Origin: a virus
Length of the DNA stretch: 23,008 nt
Direction: 5' to 3' (one strand)
Virus record (IMG/VR): IMGVR_UViG_3300025030_000426
Coordinates: 1 to 23,008 of that record
Position numbers and translations under genes: made by a program. The notes below the pieces were generated by a model, which saw only the letters and a list, made by a program, of their open reading frames with translations, did no database searches and was not told the origin of the DNA. Shown piece by piece: positions 9,142-22,078 of the stretch (position 1 is the first letter of the stretch; each line of letters begins with the position of its first letter).

Positions 9142-10215
9142 TTATTTATCAACCTCATCAGCATATTTCCAGATGAAACCTATATATGGCTTATTTTTCT
9201 TGATGTATGTACAAATATTGTTACCGTATATTCTGTTTTTTCTTCCAGCTTCAGCAATAGAAACATACGATTTTATAAATATTCCATCTAAATTAAAACA
9301 ATTTACTTTCTTACTAGATAATTTTCCGGCGTTAGATTTAGCCAATCTATTTTTTTCATATCTTTTCTCTATCCAATCAATATTTATCTCTTTTTCTCCA
9401 CCGGCATCTCTCCTATATCGCCATATTAACCCCTTAATGAAGATAGTATCTCTATTTTTGCATCCGCCTTGTATTGAACCACAGGAAGTTTTCATGTGCG
9501 ACGCAGCATCTTTTAGTGTATTAAACGATAAAACTAATTTTCCTTCTTTATTGTAAGCATCAATTCTATTGACGAGTTTGTCCTTTTTCCCTATAATTTT
9601 TTCAATGTCTTCAATTGTTAAATTTAAATCTCGTCCCCTAGTTTCTTCAAACCATCTCCAAATGAAAAACCCCGCTTGAACTTGCAAACTATTACAACAA
9701 TTTCTAATATTGCACCTGCCAATACCAGTAATCCTCATTGCCTCTGCCAAAGAATGATAAGAATTTAAAAAATTACCATCTAAATCATATTGGGACACTT
9801 CTCTTCTGTTGGGTTGAGAAAGAGACAATTTTTTAAGGCTTTTTTTATCTAAAAAAACGACGCCAGCTCCGCCGGCCGTGCAATTATAGCCAAAAGGAAT
9901 TTTCGTATCTAATATTTTTATAAACATAACCTCCATATTTTTAAGAAAATTAACATTTTCATTAACCAACAAAATTGTTTTATTAAAATTTTCAATACCA
10001 AATTCTTTGATCGCTTCGTTTATAGGGGCTGTGTGTCTTTTTGAATAATAAATATGTCTTTTTATTCGACAAATAAATGTATTTGTCGTATATCCAACAT
10101 AGCATTCTTTTGTAATTTTATTTTCTAACAAATATATAACAAATTTCATTTCTTCAAAGTCACTACTAGACAGAATATCTTCCTTTTCCCATTTTTCTGT
10201 TTTAATTTTTCTCAT
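9142..10215 (-). CDS. GIY-YIG homing endonuclease with three NUMOD1-like repeats
   Basis: The 357-residue protein opens with a GIY-YIG nuclease domain (residues 22-115). VIY (26-28) and YVG (39-41) form the signature; Arg50, Glu95 and Asn111 sit where the catalytic Arg, metal-binding Glu and Asn of I-TevI-type enzymes are expected. Three DNA-binding repeats follow near residues 140-190, 217-268 and 303-352, each of the form Y/F-(D/N)-x-(D/E)G-x-(F/L)-xxS(Y/F)xSLxxA and ending GFxxWR/K, typical of NUMOD1. It is free-standing: the flanking structural genes are both complete and I see no intron core around it. It presumably cuts phage genomes that lack it and spreads by repair. The small gap before it and zero gap after it show insertion between operon genes without breaking them. 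Confidence 0.9.
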   Translation of the reverse strand: MRKIKTEKWEKEDILSSSDFEEMKFVIYLLENKITKECYVGYTTNTFICRIKRHIYYSKRHTAPINEAIKEFGIENFNKTILLVNENVNFLKNMEVMFIKILDTKIPFGYNCTAGGAGVVFLDKKSLKKLSLSQPNRREVSQYDLDGNFLNSYHSLAEAMRITGIGRCNIRNCCNSLQVQAGFFIWRWFEETRGRDLNLTIEDIEKIIGKKDKLVNRIDAYNKEGKLVLSFNTLKDAASHMKTSCGSIQGGCKNRDTIFIKGLIWRYRRDAGGEKEINIDWIEKRYEKNRLAKSNAGKLSSKKVNCFNLDGIFIKSYVSIAEAGRKNRIYGNNICTYIKKNKPYIGFIWKYADEVDK

Positions 10216-17350: not shown

Positions 17351-18355
17351 TTAATCTTTATAAATTTCAGAACTTATAATTTTATTCCACTTTCTTTCAA
17401 AATAATATGGAGGAGAACATTCTAATAATATTTTTCCTATTTCATAGGCTCTACGACTGCCAATTGAATAAGAATAACAACCGTTGCTTTTGCAAATGTT
17501 GGCAGATTTAGAGTGCGCGGGCAATCTCCATTTATCAAAATAATATTTAATCCAATTCATCATATCTTCTGTCCCGCGAATAGATATAGATAAAGATTTG
17601 TTATATTTTATACCCTCTTTAGTTTTGTATTTATTTATCGTATTTCTTATACATCCGTCCCCGTCTATATATCCAATTATAAACGACTTTATACAATTTA
17701 TATCCTGTAAAAATGGTGGTTTTAAAGTGAAAGTTTTGCGCGGAGTAATATTAAAATTTTTTTCTAAATCAACAATATATTCAGGAGAATTAAAATTTAT
17801 ACAAGACATATAGATATATTTATTATATTCTTTATTATATTGCGAGGAATTATGTATTTCACCAGTATAATTTATTTCATCTTTAAATTTAAAAAGAAAA
17901 TCCTTATCTCTTGAATTTATTGCAATTTTAAATTCATTGTCTTCCGACAAACAACCGTCCGCAGCAATAAACCCAGCATAATACGAATTTGTAATATTTG
18001 TAATGTTAAAAAAATTTGAATTTCTTTCGTGTTTTCTATTGCCAAGAGACGACATCTTAAAATTTGTTTCTTTATTCTTTAATCCTAAAATTGCGCACCT
18101 TGCCTTAATTGAACTTTTTGTATGTAATGGAACTAATTTATAAATTTCATCATAAGTAATATTTCCATAATTTTCTATTAGAATTTTATCTTCTTCTTTT
18201 TTCCAAAAACCTTTTTTTCTGTCAGGAGTTAATTGATATACTCTATCTTTTACTACTTGTTTTGATCTATTTAAAATTTCTGCTATTTCGGAATATTCCA
18301 TCGCTTTAAAATTTTTTAAAATAAATTCATCTTCATTTTTCGTCCATCTTCTCAT
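17351..18355 (-). CDS. LAGLIDADG homing endonuclease with two Myb/SANT-like repeats
   Basis: I place the start at the ATG at 18355 (334 residues). It overlaps the TGA of the glycosyltransferase as ATGA, so translation is probably coupled; the open frame extends seven codons further to a TTG. Two N-terminal helix-turn-helix repeats resemble Myb/SANT domains: RRWTKNEDEFILKNF and GFWKKEEDKILIENYG, each followed by a second helix pair. The nuclease part has both dodecapeptide motifs, YAGFIAADG (about 126-134) and IIGYIDGDG (226-234), whose acidic residues bind the catalytic metals, so one chain can cut as a pseudo-dimer. Both flanking glycosyltransferase genes are intact at this junction and no intron core surrounds it, so it is free-standing. 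Confidence 0.9.
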   Translation of the reverse strand: MRRWTKNEDEFILKNFKAMEYSEIAEILNRSKQVVKDRVYQLTPDRKKGFWKKEEDKILIENYGNITYDEIYKLVPLHTKSSIKARCAILGLKNKETNFKMSSLGNRKHERNSNFFNITNITNSYYAGFIAADGCLSEDNEFKIAINSRDKDFLFKFKDEINYTGEIHNSSQYNKEYNKYIYMSCINFNSPEYIVDLEKNFNITPRKTFTLKPPFLQDINCIKSFIIGYIDGDGCIRNTINKYKTKEGIKYNKSLSISIRGTEDMMNWIKYYFDKWRLPAHSKSANICKSNGCYSYSIGSRRAYEIGKILLECSPPYYFERKWNKIISSEIYKD

Positions 18356-19599
18356 TTCAACTCCAACATTTCCCAACTTTTATAATTTTCTCTAAATTTT
18401 TTAATTTCTCGCTCGAAAGTTTCGTCCCATTTTTTTACTACGTCGTCATGATTAAAATTTTTTAAACAATACTTTCTACATTTTTGCCCAACTTCTCTTC
18501 TTTTTTCTGGACCTAGTTCGTACATTTTAATAAATGCGTCTGAAATTGTTTCGACAGAACAGTATTGTTCTTTTATAAAGGGAACAGTTTGACTTCCAAC
18601 TAAAGTTTCAAATTCGACAGGCAAAGCAATTCCGTTCTCTTCCCCCGTTTCGTGATCTATAACTTGTCTCGTCATTCCGCCAGTTTTTACGGCAACAATA
18701 GGATTACCAACTTGGAGTGCCTCTGTCAAAGATAATCCCCAGCCTTCATTCATGCTTATTTGGACACAAAAGTCAGAAATGTTATGAAGAACATTCATTT
18801 TTTCAAATTCAAGGTGGTCTCTTGAAAAAAATACATTTTCTTGAATATTAAAATACTCAACTGTTTGAAACAAATTTGGCCCTTCGCCATCTAAAGGTTC
18901 AGAATGACAAATTAAAGTTGCTTTTCTATGCCCGTGTTTTCTTTCTAATTTGTCAAGAAATAATTTCCAAGACCACATCAAATCATTTGGTCGTTTTCTT
19001 TTAGCATTTCTATTAATCCATATAGCAACAAGATGATCCATTCTGTCTTTTCCAAGAAGTTGTTTTTTATACATTAATTTTTGATCTTCTGGCAATGGAA
19101 AAAAAATATTTTGTGGAAGTGCGTGTGGAACAAAATTAATTCTTTCTGGAACTATTTCATTTAATAATTCATAAGTTAAATAAGATATACAATTTAACCA
19201 ATCTGCGGAACGATAAATCCAGAAATTAAATTTTGGACTAGGATCACAATCCCAAATATTCCACCACAAAATATTTGAAATTTGGTGAATTTCATCCTCC
19301 ATCGCTAAAAGCCATTCGAAAAATCTTGGATCGGTGAAAAGAAAAACACAATCTGGTTTTTCTGTTACTAATAATTGACGCAACATTTGCGGATCCGAAA
19401 ATCCATCAACCGGTTTAATTATAAAATCTTCATTTACAACGATAGTATCATAATTTGCGTGTTTTATCGCACCCCCAATACATTTAAAAGAATATTTTCC
19501 AGTTTTTATGAGACCCTCAATCAAATGTCTGCTCTGCGTTCCAACCATTTTTCTGTTGCTTTTATGACCTTGAAAATCATTTTCAAGGCGGGCAAACAT
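18352..19599 (-). CDS. Glycosyltransferase (GT-B fold); N-terminus disrupted by group I intron
   Basis: The protein resembles phage family-1/4 glycosyltransferases: GTQSRHLIEGLIKTGKY, FLFTDPRFFEWLLAMEDEIHQ, WNIWDCDP, NFVPHALPQNIFFPLP, INRNAKRKRP (phosphate contact) and NEGWGLSLTEALQVGNPIVA with EX7E at Glu285 and Glu293. The sugar and acceptor are unknown. The first 18-19 residues (MFARLENDFQGHKSNRKM) do not look like the family and are encoded by the last two intron hairpins; the genuine part starts at GTQSRHL, with exon 2 predicted from 19544. The usual first beta-strand is missing. The ATG at 19599 has GAGG 9 nt upstream, so unspliced RNA might still be translated. Function in the absence of the first strand is doubtful. 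Confidence 0.75.
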   Translation of the reverse strand: MFARLENDFQGHKSNRKMVGTQSRHLIEGLIKTGKYSFKCIGGAIKHANYDTIVVNEDFIIKPVDGFSDPQMLRQLLVTEKPDCVFLFTDPRFFEWLLAMEDEIHQISNILWWNIWDCDPSPKFNFWIYRSADWLNCISYLTYELLNEIVPERINFVPHALPQNIFFPLPEDQKLMYKKQLLGKDRMDHLVAIWINRNAKRKRPNDLMWSWKLFLDKLERKHGHRKATLICHSEPLDGEGPNLFQTVEYFNIQENVFFSRDHLEFEKMNVLHNISDFCVQISMNEGWGLSLTEALQVGNPIVAVKTGGMTRQVIDHETGEENGIALPVEFETLVGSQTVPFIKEQYCSVETISDAFIKMYELGPEKRREVGQKCRKYCLKNFNHDDVVKKWDETFEREIKKFRENYKSWEMLELK

Positions 19600-20731
19600 T
19601 TCTGTTTGCCTCTCTATGTCTCCATAGAGTTCAGACTATATCTTCATCACTTTTTAAAATGATGCTCGGCGTGTAGTCGTTGAGGGGTCAACCACGACTT
19701 CCCTGCGGATTGTCTCTATTTTGTGAATTTTTACACTTTTTTGTGAGATGGTCAGTCTCGCGTATCACAAACCTAACAAGAGTTTCCCGCATATAGCCAA
19801 GTTAAGTGGCATTGAAATCTATATACCACTAAATGAAAGAGGGTGGTCCGAAAACCATAATATCTTGTATTTATTCGACATTTTGTATCTCCATTAAATT
19901 TTCAATTCTCCTTTTCAATTTATTTACCGTGCCTTCTTTATTTCTTCTATATTCATTTTCCCATATAATTTCAACTCTATTATTTGATTTAGTTAAATCT
20001 AAAATTTTTCTATTATCTTTATCCCATATTTGTTTTGCTGTCTTTTTCGAAACTGGGTTGAAAAAATCTTTATTATAAAAAGACGGATCGGCGTGCCAAA
20101 AACATCCATTAAATTCTATAATTAATCTTAATTCTTTTATTAAAATATCTACTTTATAATATTTTTCTTCGCTTATATAAACTCTTTTTTCTTTCTCAAC
20201 ACATAGTTGTGGAAACTCTTTTTTTATTGTTGAATATAAATCTAGACTATTTTTTGATGTTGATTTAATTGTATTTGAATTTACCCAATTATCATAAGTT
20301 CCATTTTTAATATAAAATTTAGACGCGCAAGGTCTAGAACAAAATCCGTTTCTTTCTCTGTCTCTAAAAAAAGGTAGATTACAAAATCTACAAATATATT
20401 TTTGAGCCCTCTTTCTTGAAGAAACTCTTGTTCTATTACATCTATGTTTGTTGAAACATAATTTCGAGCAAGTTTTTTGATTCATCGCTTTTGGATTAAA
20501 TTTATTTTTACAAACTATACAAATAATATCAAAATTATATATACAATCTCTTGAACAAAAATGATGTCCGGCATTTTTTCTTTTCTTGCTTCCTAACGCT
20601 CCTTTCGGTGCTTCAAAAATTTTCTTACACGCATCACATCGAAAAACTAATATTTTTTTCTTTCGTTTCTTTTTATCTTTACCGACAGAAACAACAATTT
20701 TCTCTTCTATAAACACTCATTTTAATTATAA
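19545..20731 (-). ncRNA. Group I intron with homing endonuclease gene in the P1 loop
   Basis: Conserved core elements fold by hand on the minus strand. P2 pairs 19830-19823 with 19812-19805. P3 pairs CUUGGC (19801-19796) with GCCGAG (19670-19665). P4 pairs UGCGG (19791-19787) with CCGCA (19708-19704). P6 pairs GGG/GUC with GAC/CCC near 19703-19683. P7 pairs GACUA (19678-19674) with UAGUC (19638-19634). P8 is a 19664-19645 hairpin. P9, P9.1 (GAAA loop) and P9.2 are perfect hairpins at 19629-19612, 19610-19591 and 19588-19568. P1 would pair exon GGUU (20735-20732) with GACC (19848-19845), giving the required U-G at the splice site; the intron would end in G19545. Length would be 1187 nt. The core is strong; the exact ends are a prediction. 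Confidence 0.85.
19871..20716 (-). CDS. Vsr-like (EDxHD-type) homing endonuclease with three zinc ribbons, intron-encoded
   Basis: The open frame starts at GTG 20716 (281 residues); no in-frame ATG occurs before residue 78. Three CxxC...CxxxC zinc ribbons follow one another: Cys27/30/54/58, Cys66/69/83/87 and Cys109/112/126/130. The C-terminal nuclease domain has YYKVDILIKELRLIIEFNG, then CFWHADP (Asp190, Glu201, His208, Asp210), the arrangement of Vsr-like EDxHD enzymes such as the intron-encoded I-Bth0305I. It ends about 20 nt before the intron's internal guide region, so it fills the loop of P1. It would make the intron mobile by cutting intronless alleles of the glycosyltransferase gene. 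A minus-strand TATAAT just upstream may drive it independently. Confidence 0.85.
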   Translation of the reverse strand: MFIEEKIVVSVGKDKKKRKKKILVFRCDACKKIFEAPKGALGSKKRKNAGHHFCSRDCIYNFDIICIVCKNKFNPKAMNQKTCSKLCFNKHRCNRTRVSSRKRAQKYICRFCNLPFFRDRERNGFCSRPCASKFYIKNGTYDNWVNSNTIKSTSKNSLDLYSTIKKEFPQLCVEKEKRVYISEEKYYKVDILIKELRLIIEFNGCFWHADPSFYNKDFFNPVSKKTAKQIWDKDNRKILDLTKSNNRVEIIWENEYRRNKEGTVNKLKRRIENLMEIQNVE

Positions 20732-20753
20732 AACCTCGCTAATTACTTGTATG
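20725..20753 (-). promoter_or_regulatory. Candidate promoter for the endonuclease, overlapping a plus-strand -10-like box
   Basis: On the minus strand a perfect TATAAT (20730-20725) is preceded after 17 nt by CATACA (20753-20748), a weak -35. The start point would fall close to the GTG at 20716. On the plus strand the same bases read TATAAA (20727-20732), suitably placed about 18 nt before the protease ATG, though without a recognisable -35. One short A/T-rich segment may thus serve both divergent genes. Confidence 0.35.
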
Positions 20754-21287
20754 GAAAAATTTTTATTTTTTCTTCTTTTTCTCGCACCAGTTTTATTCTC
20801 TTTAACCTCTCTTCACGAATTATACCATATCATCATTTATAAACTTCAAGGGTATAAACCCCGTATTTATCTAATTCCAGAATTCACCTCTCGTCGTTAT
20901 TTCGGCTTCATTCCAGGAATTCGTTTTGGAAGATTTAGCGAAGTTGGGCAAATTGAATTACCCAAATGGCAGGAGGGGTTAGTTTATTTGATGCCTGTCA
21001 TAATAGAAACAATTATATTTTCTATATCATTTTCATTATATATAATTTATGGCTCTATAAAAATTGATTGGCTCAATATTTTAACTTTAATGTTTATTTT
21101 AGGAAATTTATTTGACGCAGCCAAAAACCTTTTTCAATCATTTTTTCCAAAATTTTGGATTTTGGATACAAATAAAGTAATTGAGGCGTGGGAAGCACCT
21201 AGGATTTTATTTAATATTTTAGGAATATTATATTTAATATCTTTTATATTATTTGTCTGGTTTATTTTTCACTTTAATTTCATTTGA
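20751..21287 (+). CDS. Small integral-membrane zinc metalloprotease-like protein (M50/DUF3267-like)
   Basis: The 178-residue protein is the only plus-strand gene. I start it at ATG 20751, which gives a hydrophobic first helix (residues 4-20) leading straight into HELYH (22-26), an HEXXH zinc site. Further helices lie at about 78-100, 107-122 and 150-175. A GNLFDAAKN segment (118-126) offers Asp122 as a likely third zinc ligand, the layout of M50-type and DUF3267 intramembrane proteases. Family assignment rests on these motifs alone. The frame is open upstream to 20586 but that part overlaps the endonuclease and is not protein-like. Its 3' end overlaps the convergent nuclease gene by 19 nt. 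Strand and content suggest an inserted accessory (moron) gene, perhaps acting on host membrane proteins; this is inference. Confidence 0.7.
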   Translation: MEKFLFFLLFLAPVLFSLTSLHELYHIIIYKLQGYKPRIYLIPEFTSRRYFGFIPGIRFGRFSEVGQIELPKWQEGLVYLMPVIIETIIFSISFSLYIIYGSIKIDWLNILTLMFILGNLFDAAKNLFQSFFPKFWILDTNKVIEAWEAPRILFNILGILYLISFILFVWFIFHFNFI

Positions 21288-22078
21288 ATCCAGTTTTTAC
21301 AATAATCCGTATCTTTAAATTCGCAATATTCACAACTTGTTCTATTTTTAAAAAATCTATCATTCATTAAATTAAAAACCATATTTCCCATATTTTTAAA
21401 GGCTCTTTCAGAGGTTTTCTCCCCAACCGAAACTGAAAATAATTCGCACCTCTTCCCGTCTTTCATTTTTCTCTTTAAAATAATAAAGGCGCAACGTATA
21501 TCTTTTAAATCAATATTATGTTTTTTTGACCAAATATTTTTATAATAAATTAATTGAGATTTAACAATAAAATTTTGTTTTTTCTGTCGTGACCAATTAT
21601 ACATCGCAGTTTTCCAGTCAAGAATATGATATATATTTTTCTCTTTTTTATTCTTTACTTTTATAACAGCATCAATATATCCTTTTAATTTTATGTTTCC
21701 GCCAACAATTTCCTCATTAATCAATTCTTCTGCTTTAACCGCTTCCCAATTAGGAAATTCTTTTTCCATAAAATCAGGAATTTCTTCTAAAATCTTCTTA
21801 AGTTCTTCCATCCATTCTTCAATATTTCCAAAATTATTTAATCCCCATTCCTCTTCAAGAATTTTTATAGCAATATCTTTATCCATCTCCCTTGTTTCAA
21901 TAAAATTTTGACAAGAAGCATGAATAGCAGTCCCAAAAGCAGAATATTCGTTCGGGGCGCCTAAATCAATACCGTCAATATATTTTAATTTATGCCTATA
22001 AGAACAATCGTTCCAGATTTGGAACTCGGAAAAAGAGATATGAGATTTTTTGGTGGGAAGTTGAATTAATTCAGACAT
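21269..22078 (-). CDS. PD-(D/E)XK nuclease with Fe-S-type cysteines (RecB/Cas4-like)
   Basis: The 269-residue protein starts SFSEFQIWNDCSYRHKLKYI, a typical opening of PDDEXK_1 domains, then FGTAIH (48-53) and the core GYIDAVIKV (133-141) plus ILDWKTA (152-158), giving Asp136, Asp154 and Lys156, and the QLIYY helix (175-179). Cys25 together with Cys249, Cys252 and Cys260 matches the one-plus-three cysteine pattern that holds a 4Fe-4S cluster in AddB and Cas4 nucleases. It most likely trims single- or double-stranded DNA ends in phage recombination or host DNA breakdown. It ends in TGA. There is no CRISPR array or other cas gene in the window, so I do not read it as a Cas4. It follows the Dam gene with a 48-nt gap. 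Confidence 0.85.
   Translation of the reverse strand: MSELIQLPTKKSHISFSEFQIWNDCSYRHKLKYIDGIDLGAPNEYSAFGTAIHASCQNFIETREMDKDIAIKILEEEWGLNNFGNIEEWMEELKKILEEIPDFMEKEFPNWEAVKAEELINEEIVGGNIKLKGYIDAVIKVKNKKEKNIYHILDWKTAMYNWSRQKKQNFIVKSQLIYYKNIWSKKHNIDLKDIRCAFIILKRKMKDGKRCELFSVSVGEKTSERAFKNMGNMVFNLMNDRFFKNRTSCEYCEFKDTDYCKNWIQMKLK

Follow-up and report, generated by a model that had tools for sequence, protein, structure and literature searches.

A glycosyltransferase gene on the minus strand of the viral DNA studied here (23,008 nt in all, called the window below) is interrupted by a group I intron. The intron is ORF-less, and a gene for a free-standing endonuclease lies next to it, upstream of the interrupted gene. 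We read the two, with a probability of about 0.75, as a self-splicing intron and a neighbouring endonuclease that have spread together by collaborative (trans) homing. This reading starts from the anatomy and splice sites of the intron, the empty sites in its relatives, the position of the endonuclease gene, and the recurrence of introns at one junction in association with endonucleases.

A restricted Rfam search matched the minus strand from 19834 to 19612 to the group I model RF00028 over the full model (positions 1-253 of 253) with 87 bits (E=1.9e-22; the gathering score is 50), and the conserved catalytic core P3-P8 matching RF00028 is present. The first-pass annotation had paired the hairpins of a group I core on this strand and proposed an Rfam covariance search as the check; the significant match bears out the core, as does its fold. 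The 285-nt transcript folded at -83.4 kcal/mol compared with -57.5 (sd 4.7) for shuffled sequences (z=-5.5), and P1, P3, P4, P5/6, P8, P9, P9.1 and P9.2 were all found in the minimum free energy structure, with P9, P9.1 and P9.2 placed as they had been in the first-pass annotation. An Rfam scan of the whole window at the default gathering cut-off gave no match, showing that a fast automatic scan misses this intron; counts of phage introns taken from default Rfam scans may therefore run too low. An exact pattern search of IMG/VR with the core of the window intron also gave no match, leaving it with only one known member.

Exon 1 lies directly above the core. It reads ATG TCG AAT AAA ... TTT AGT GGT, and a possible ribosome-binding site, GGAG, precedes it at 19892-19889. 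The first codons of exon 2 are GTT GGA ACG CAG from 19545, so that the start of exon 2 first proposed, 19544 before Gly-Thr-Gln, was right to within 1 nt but missed the valine codon GTT with which the exon begins. When exon 1 is joined to 19545, the frame is restored exactly and an unbroken glycosyltransferase of 416 aa results, in which the insertion falls after codon 19, at the conserved loop SG/VGTQ (the slash marks the junction). Its match to PF00534 (Glycos_transf_1; 43.6 bits, cut-off 26.4) identifies a GT-B glycosyltransferase domain. Relatives in IMG/VR that are 48-58% identical have an uninterrupted protein at this point (...SDHALSTSG/VGTQTRHL...). Altogether, 193 distinct intronless phage relatives, pooled from three glycosyltransferase searches, were contiguous across the exact junction (...LSDHPLSTSG/VGTQ... 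or the close variant SDHxLSxSG/VGTQ). The sequence MFARLENDFQGHK before VGTQ was absent from all 193. The first 18 residues of the ORF that starts at ATG 19599 (codons 19599-19546) are therefore intron RNA read as protein, as the first-pass annotation had suspected. Gene callers can be expected to misplace the N-termini of such genes and to overlook an exon 1 this short.

The 5' splice site is between 19825 and 19824. The first reading had the intron run from 19545 to 20731, having missed exon 1, P1 and P10; the roughly 900 bases above the 5' splice site are exon 1 and an endonuclease ORF upstream of the gene, and exon 1 separates that ORF from the 279-nt intron. P1 of the window intron is AGUGGU/GCCACU with the U.G pair at the splice site, and we place the P10 strand in the guide sequence upstream of P1. 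By established group I chemistry, the intron most likely splices itself from the mRNA: guanosine would attack at U19825/A19824, omega-G 19546 would define the 3' end, P10 would guide ligation, and the product would be MSNKYKILWFSDHPLSFSG-VGTQSRH.... The stop codon of the exon-1 frame just inside the unspliced intron would prevent ribosomes from entering the core. The coordinates of these features are collected in Table 1.

Table 1. Features of the interrupted glycosyltransferase locus in the window.
Feature	Position	Strand	Basis
Exon 1, 57 nt, MSNKYKILWFSDHPLSFSG	19825..19881	minus	in-frame splice; contiguous in 193 intronless relatives
Group I intron, ORF-less, 279 nt, last base G (omega-G)	19546..19824	minus	RF00028, fold z=-5.5, empty-site limits
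P1 5' strand AGTGGTAT, from the end of exon 1 to intron base 2; U.G wobble pair at 5' splice site	19823..19830	minus	sequence
TAG stop in exon-1 frame, two codons into intron	19819..19821	minus	sequence
P10 partner TTTCAAT, pairs exon 2 GTTGGAA (19545-19539)	19811..19817	minus	7 contiguous pairs incl. G-U
P1 3' strand / internal guide sequence ATGCCACT	19805..19812	minus	sequence
P9 hairpin	19612..19629	minus	RF00028 match, fold
P9.1 hairpin; contains ATG 19599, likely gene-caller start for glycosyltransferase	19591..19610	minus	ORF list, fold
P9.2 hairpin	19568..19588	minus	fold
Exon 2, VGTQSRH... to stop	18352..19545	minus	PF00534 2.9e-11; phrog_2170 1.9e-16
Free-standing zinc-finger/Vsr-like homing endonuclease ORF, 281 aa from an uncertain GTG start	19871..20716	minus	1vsr phmmer, Foldseek, phrog_22677
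Second free-standing endonuclease ORF, LAGLIDADG + Myb-like, downstream of gene	17351..18376	minus	PF14528 4.3e-6, PF13921 7.9e-6
PD-(D/E)XK gene, context marker; directly precedes glycosyltransferase in most relatives	21269..22078	minus	PF12705 3.5e-20

The upstream endonuclease ORF extends over the first 11 nt of exon 1, and all of it lies before the 5' splice site. It matches phrog_22677 (9e-20), its N-terminus is rich in paired cysteines, and its C-terminal domain resembles 1vsr (phmmer E=0.0024). Foldseek returned Vsr with a probability of 1.00 (E 2e-3) and I-Bth0305I with 0.96 (E 0.1); no Foldseek match passes E=0.001. Residues D190, E201 and H208, candidates for members of the E, D, H, D catalytic set, were invariant in six relatives. 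A single-sequence query for close relatives of the endonuclease found none, and a two-sequence alignment used as the query did retrieve relatives. The LAGLIDADG and Myb-like ORF stands between two glycosyltransferase genes and had no tblastn match in the first 80 relatives. With one endonuclease ORF downstream and another upstream, the interrupted gene is bracketed in the manner of 'HEG islands' (PMC10448857). A third endonuclease ORF of the window, with GIY-YIG and NUMOD1 domains, was seen amid structural genes (9142-10215, minus strand). Between the PD-(D/E)XK gene and the upstream endonuclease sits a lone plus-strand ORF (20751-21284) whose product is small, membrane-like and weakly matched to the DUF3267 zincin family (E=0.01). 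Promoter and terminator scans stayed at chance level.

Introns recur in this gene. A locus found as a plain relative of the glycosyltransferase (L054) is interrupted after GACCATCCGT by an intron whose site is 14 nt upstream from that of the window, and it has a related endonuclease just upstream. Nine distinct loci carry an intron at this second position, which we call site A (L054, L126/L127, L134, L138, L164, L173, L260, L273 and L364). All nine site-A introns end in G and restore a Leu codon at the consensus position, and in all nine P1 pairs CAUCCGU with a GCGGAU guide; here, too, the exon-1 frame is stopped within a few codons. P10 of the site-A introns covaries with exon 2, since 5-6 bp form with an intron's own guide compared with a mean of 2.9 in cross combinations. 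An RNAalifold alignment of six of them gave 64 pairs, 25 of which have two-sided compensatory changes. Site-A introns are 69-87% identical to one another, whereas their host exons are only 48-65% identical, a contrast that speaks for mobility. Judged by its identity of 45-51% to the site-A introns, the window intron is of a different lineage. The exon-1 end reads CATCCGT in 9/9 site-A carriers and in only 3 of the 193 intronless genes, an enrichment that fits either exon co-conversion or target choice.

We considered the site-A core pattern as a marker of the glycosyltransferase gene and rejected it, because it matched at least 120 contigs and is a widespread phage intron core. Three contigs (L287, L288 and L298) have 4-7 copies of the core motif within a few kb and possibly represent many-intron genes. 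In L054 (618-1640), the endonuclease ORF continues across exon 1 in a different frame as far as a stop codon in the intron, and its translation would thus enter the core; we do not regard this read-through as meaningful, because the frame relation varies between carriers.

The usual gene order at the junction is the PD-(D/E)XK gene and, at once, the glycosyltransferase. Measured between the PD-(D/E)XK stop codon and the VGTQ codon, and thus counting the exon-1 codons, the gap was 250 nt or less in 99 of 116 intronless loci (those from the first two glycosyltransferase searches plus L165). All carriers have an endonuclease gene, remnant or fragment immediately upstream, mostly of the zinc-finger/Vsr type. 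The gene is full in the window and in L054, L164, L173, L260 and L364; L134 has a C-terminal remnant of it (phrog_22677 E=0.0011), and a short endonuclease tail precedes L126 (judged by eye) and L273 (cut by the contig end). L138 has a fragment of a different type, endonuclease VII-like by PHROGs, for which a Pfam search gave no match. Endonucleases also occur at the same junction without an intron: a phrog_3339 homing endonuclease in L030 and L051, a Vsr-like endonuclease in L108, L144 and L152, an endonuclease VII in L154, a weak phrog_314 match in L160, and a Vsr-like endonuclease in L165, a locus found through the endonuclease search. When only loci found via the glycosyltransferase were counted (carriers L054, L126, L134, L138 and L364), an endonuclease or its remnant was upstream in 5/5 carriers compared with 7/180 intronless loci, with a nominal P=4.6e-7 that is optimistic because the association is among related sequences with shared ancestry.

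The marks of collaborative homing found here are a 279-nt intron without an endonuclease ORF, an adjacent free-standing endonuclease gene, and this co-occurrence. By precedent, collaborative homing is the most likely course for the pair, together with the endonuclease target and joint transfer that it entails: the zinc-finger/Vsr-like endonuclease would cleave glycosyltransferase alleles that lack the intron, close to the 5' end, and repair templated by the intron-bearing locus would copy endonuclease and intron together. A different possibility is that the intron is real and moves independently of the upstream endonuclease. Free-standing endonucleases would then simply have the 5' end of the gene as a hotspot; reverse splicing would have brought the introns, or earlier intron-borne endonucleases would have left them behind. 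The several endonuclease types found at the junction without introns, and the intron of L138 beside a different type, would fit such a history, and endonuclease turnover has been proposed as an alternative origin of such loci (PMC10448857). We nonetheless think it unlikely, given the strength of the association, the occurrence of one endonuclease family next to two introns of unrelated lineage, and introns that lie within 40-57 nt of the end of the endonuclease gene.

It is very improbable that the intron is dead, or that expression of the gene starts solely at ATG 19599 and gives an intron-derived N-terminus. The frame is indeed open from 19599 through exon 2, but P1, P10, the core and omega-G are all intact, a protein from ATG 19599 would lack the conserved first segment of its relatives, and several other carriers have stops in frame before exon 2. 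The first reading implied a 1.2-kb intron, about 20731 to 19545, with the endonuclease ORF inside it and an exon 1 still farther upstream, and to this we give next to no credence. Phage group I introns often house endonuclease ORFs, and this one does adjoin the core, but between the two comes exon 1, whose 57 nt match the N-terminus of all relatives and at whose end P1 and P10 are found, and L165 has the same endonuclease type upstream of an intronless glycosyltransferase.

Within the preferred reading of collaborative homing, we tentatively suggest, at somewhat less than even odds, that one lineage of free-standing zinc-finger/Vsr endonucleases targeting the 5' end of this widespread phage glycosyltransferase gene independently recruited two unrelated ORF-less introns 14 nt apart, and that the stages are preserved side by side. 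If so, present-day phages would display the endonuclease alone, the endonuclease with an intron, an intron with a decaying endonuclease, an intron with a replacement endonuclease, and the empty site. The junction described here bears on how ORF-less introns come to be tied to endonucleases; collaborative homing, whose origin is disputed (PMC10448857), rests on a handful of loci. With ten distinct carriers from two intron families, endonucleases in several states and some 190 empty alleles, it provides enough material for phylogenetic and cleavage tests of the sequence of events.

Precedents for trans homing are the nrdB intron of T4 with mobE, an HNH endonuclease (PMC2988022), and the psbA intron of cyanophages with F-CphI, which is endonuclease VII-like (PMC6083498, PMC3984707). 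In ICP1, the terL intron has an adjacent T5orf172 endonuclease beside a short N-terminal exon (PMC10448857). As at these three loci, the window has an intron that itself encodes no working endonuclease and a separate endonuclease gene near the interrupted gene, and like ICP1 terL it has a short N-terminal exon adjoining the endonuclease. Unlike them, the host gene is a glycosyltransferase, the partner is of the zinc-finger/Vsr type, two unrelated intron families lie 14 nt apart, and cleavage is argued from precedent. Genes of nucleotide synthesis and DNA metabolism are said to be the favoured hosts of phage group I introns (PMC12350094), a preference from which the glycosyltransferase departs, and we found no intron in a phage glycosyltransferase in the open-access literature searched. 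In its build, the window intron resembles other RF00028 introns of phages, with a complete core, P1, P9, P9.1, P9.2, P10, a terminal G and an early stop in the exon frame. The endonuclease shares a Vsr-like C-terminal domain and an association with phage introns with the EDxHD/Vsr homing endonucleases such as I-Bth0305I, and N-terminal cysteine-rich repeats followed by a Vsr-like domain with the large outgroup of CapR-like and EDxHD/Vsr proteins (PMC12350094). It differs from EDxHD/Vsr members in lying outside the intron, upstream of the host gene, and in its weak similarity to the solved members. Taken together, these comparisons indicate that the kind of system is already known; what appears new is a glycosyltransferase as host gene, recurrence at a single site, a Vsr-type partner, and two unrelated intron families within 14 nt.
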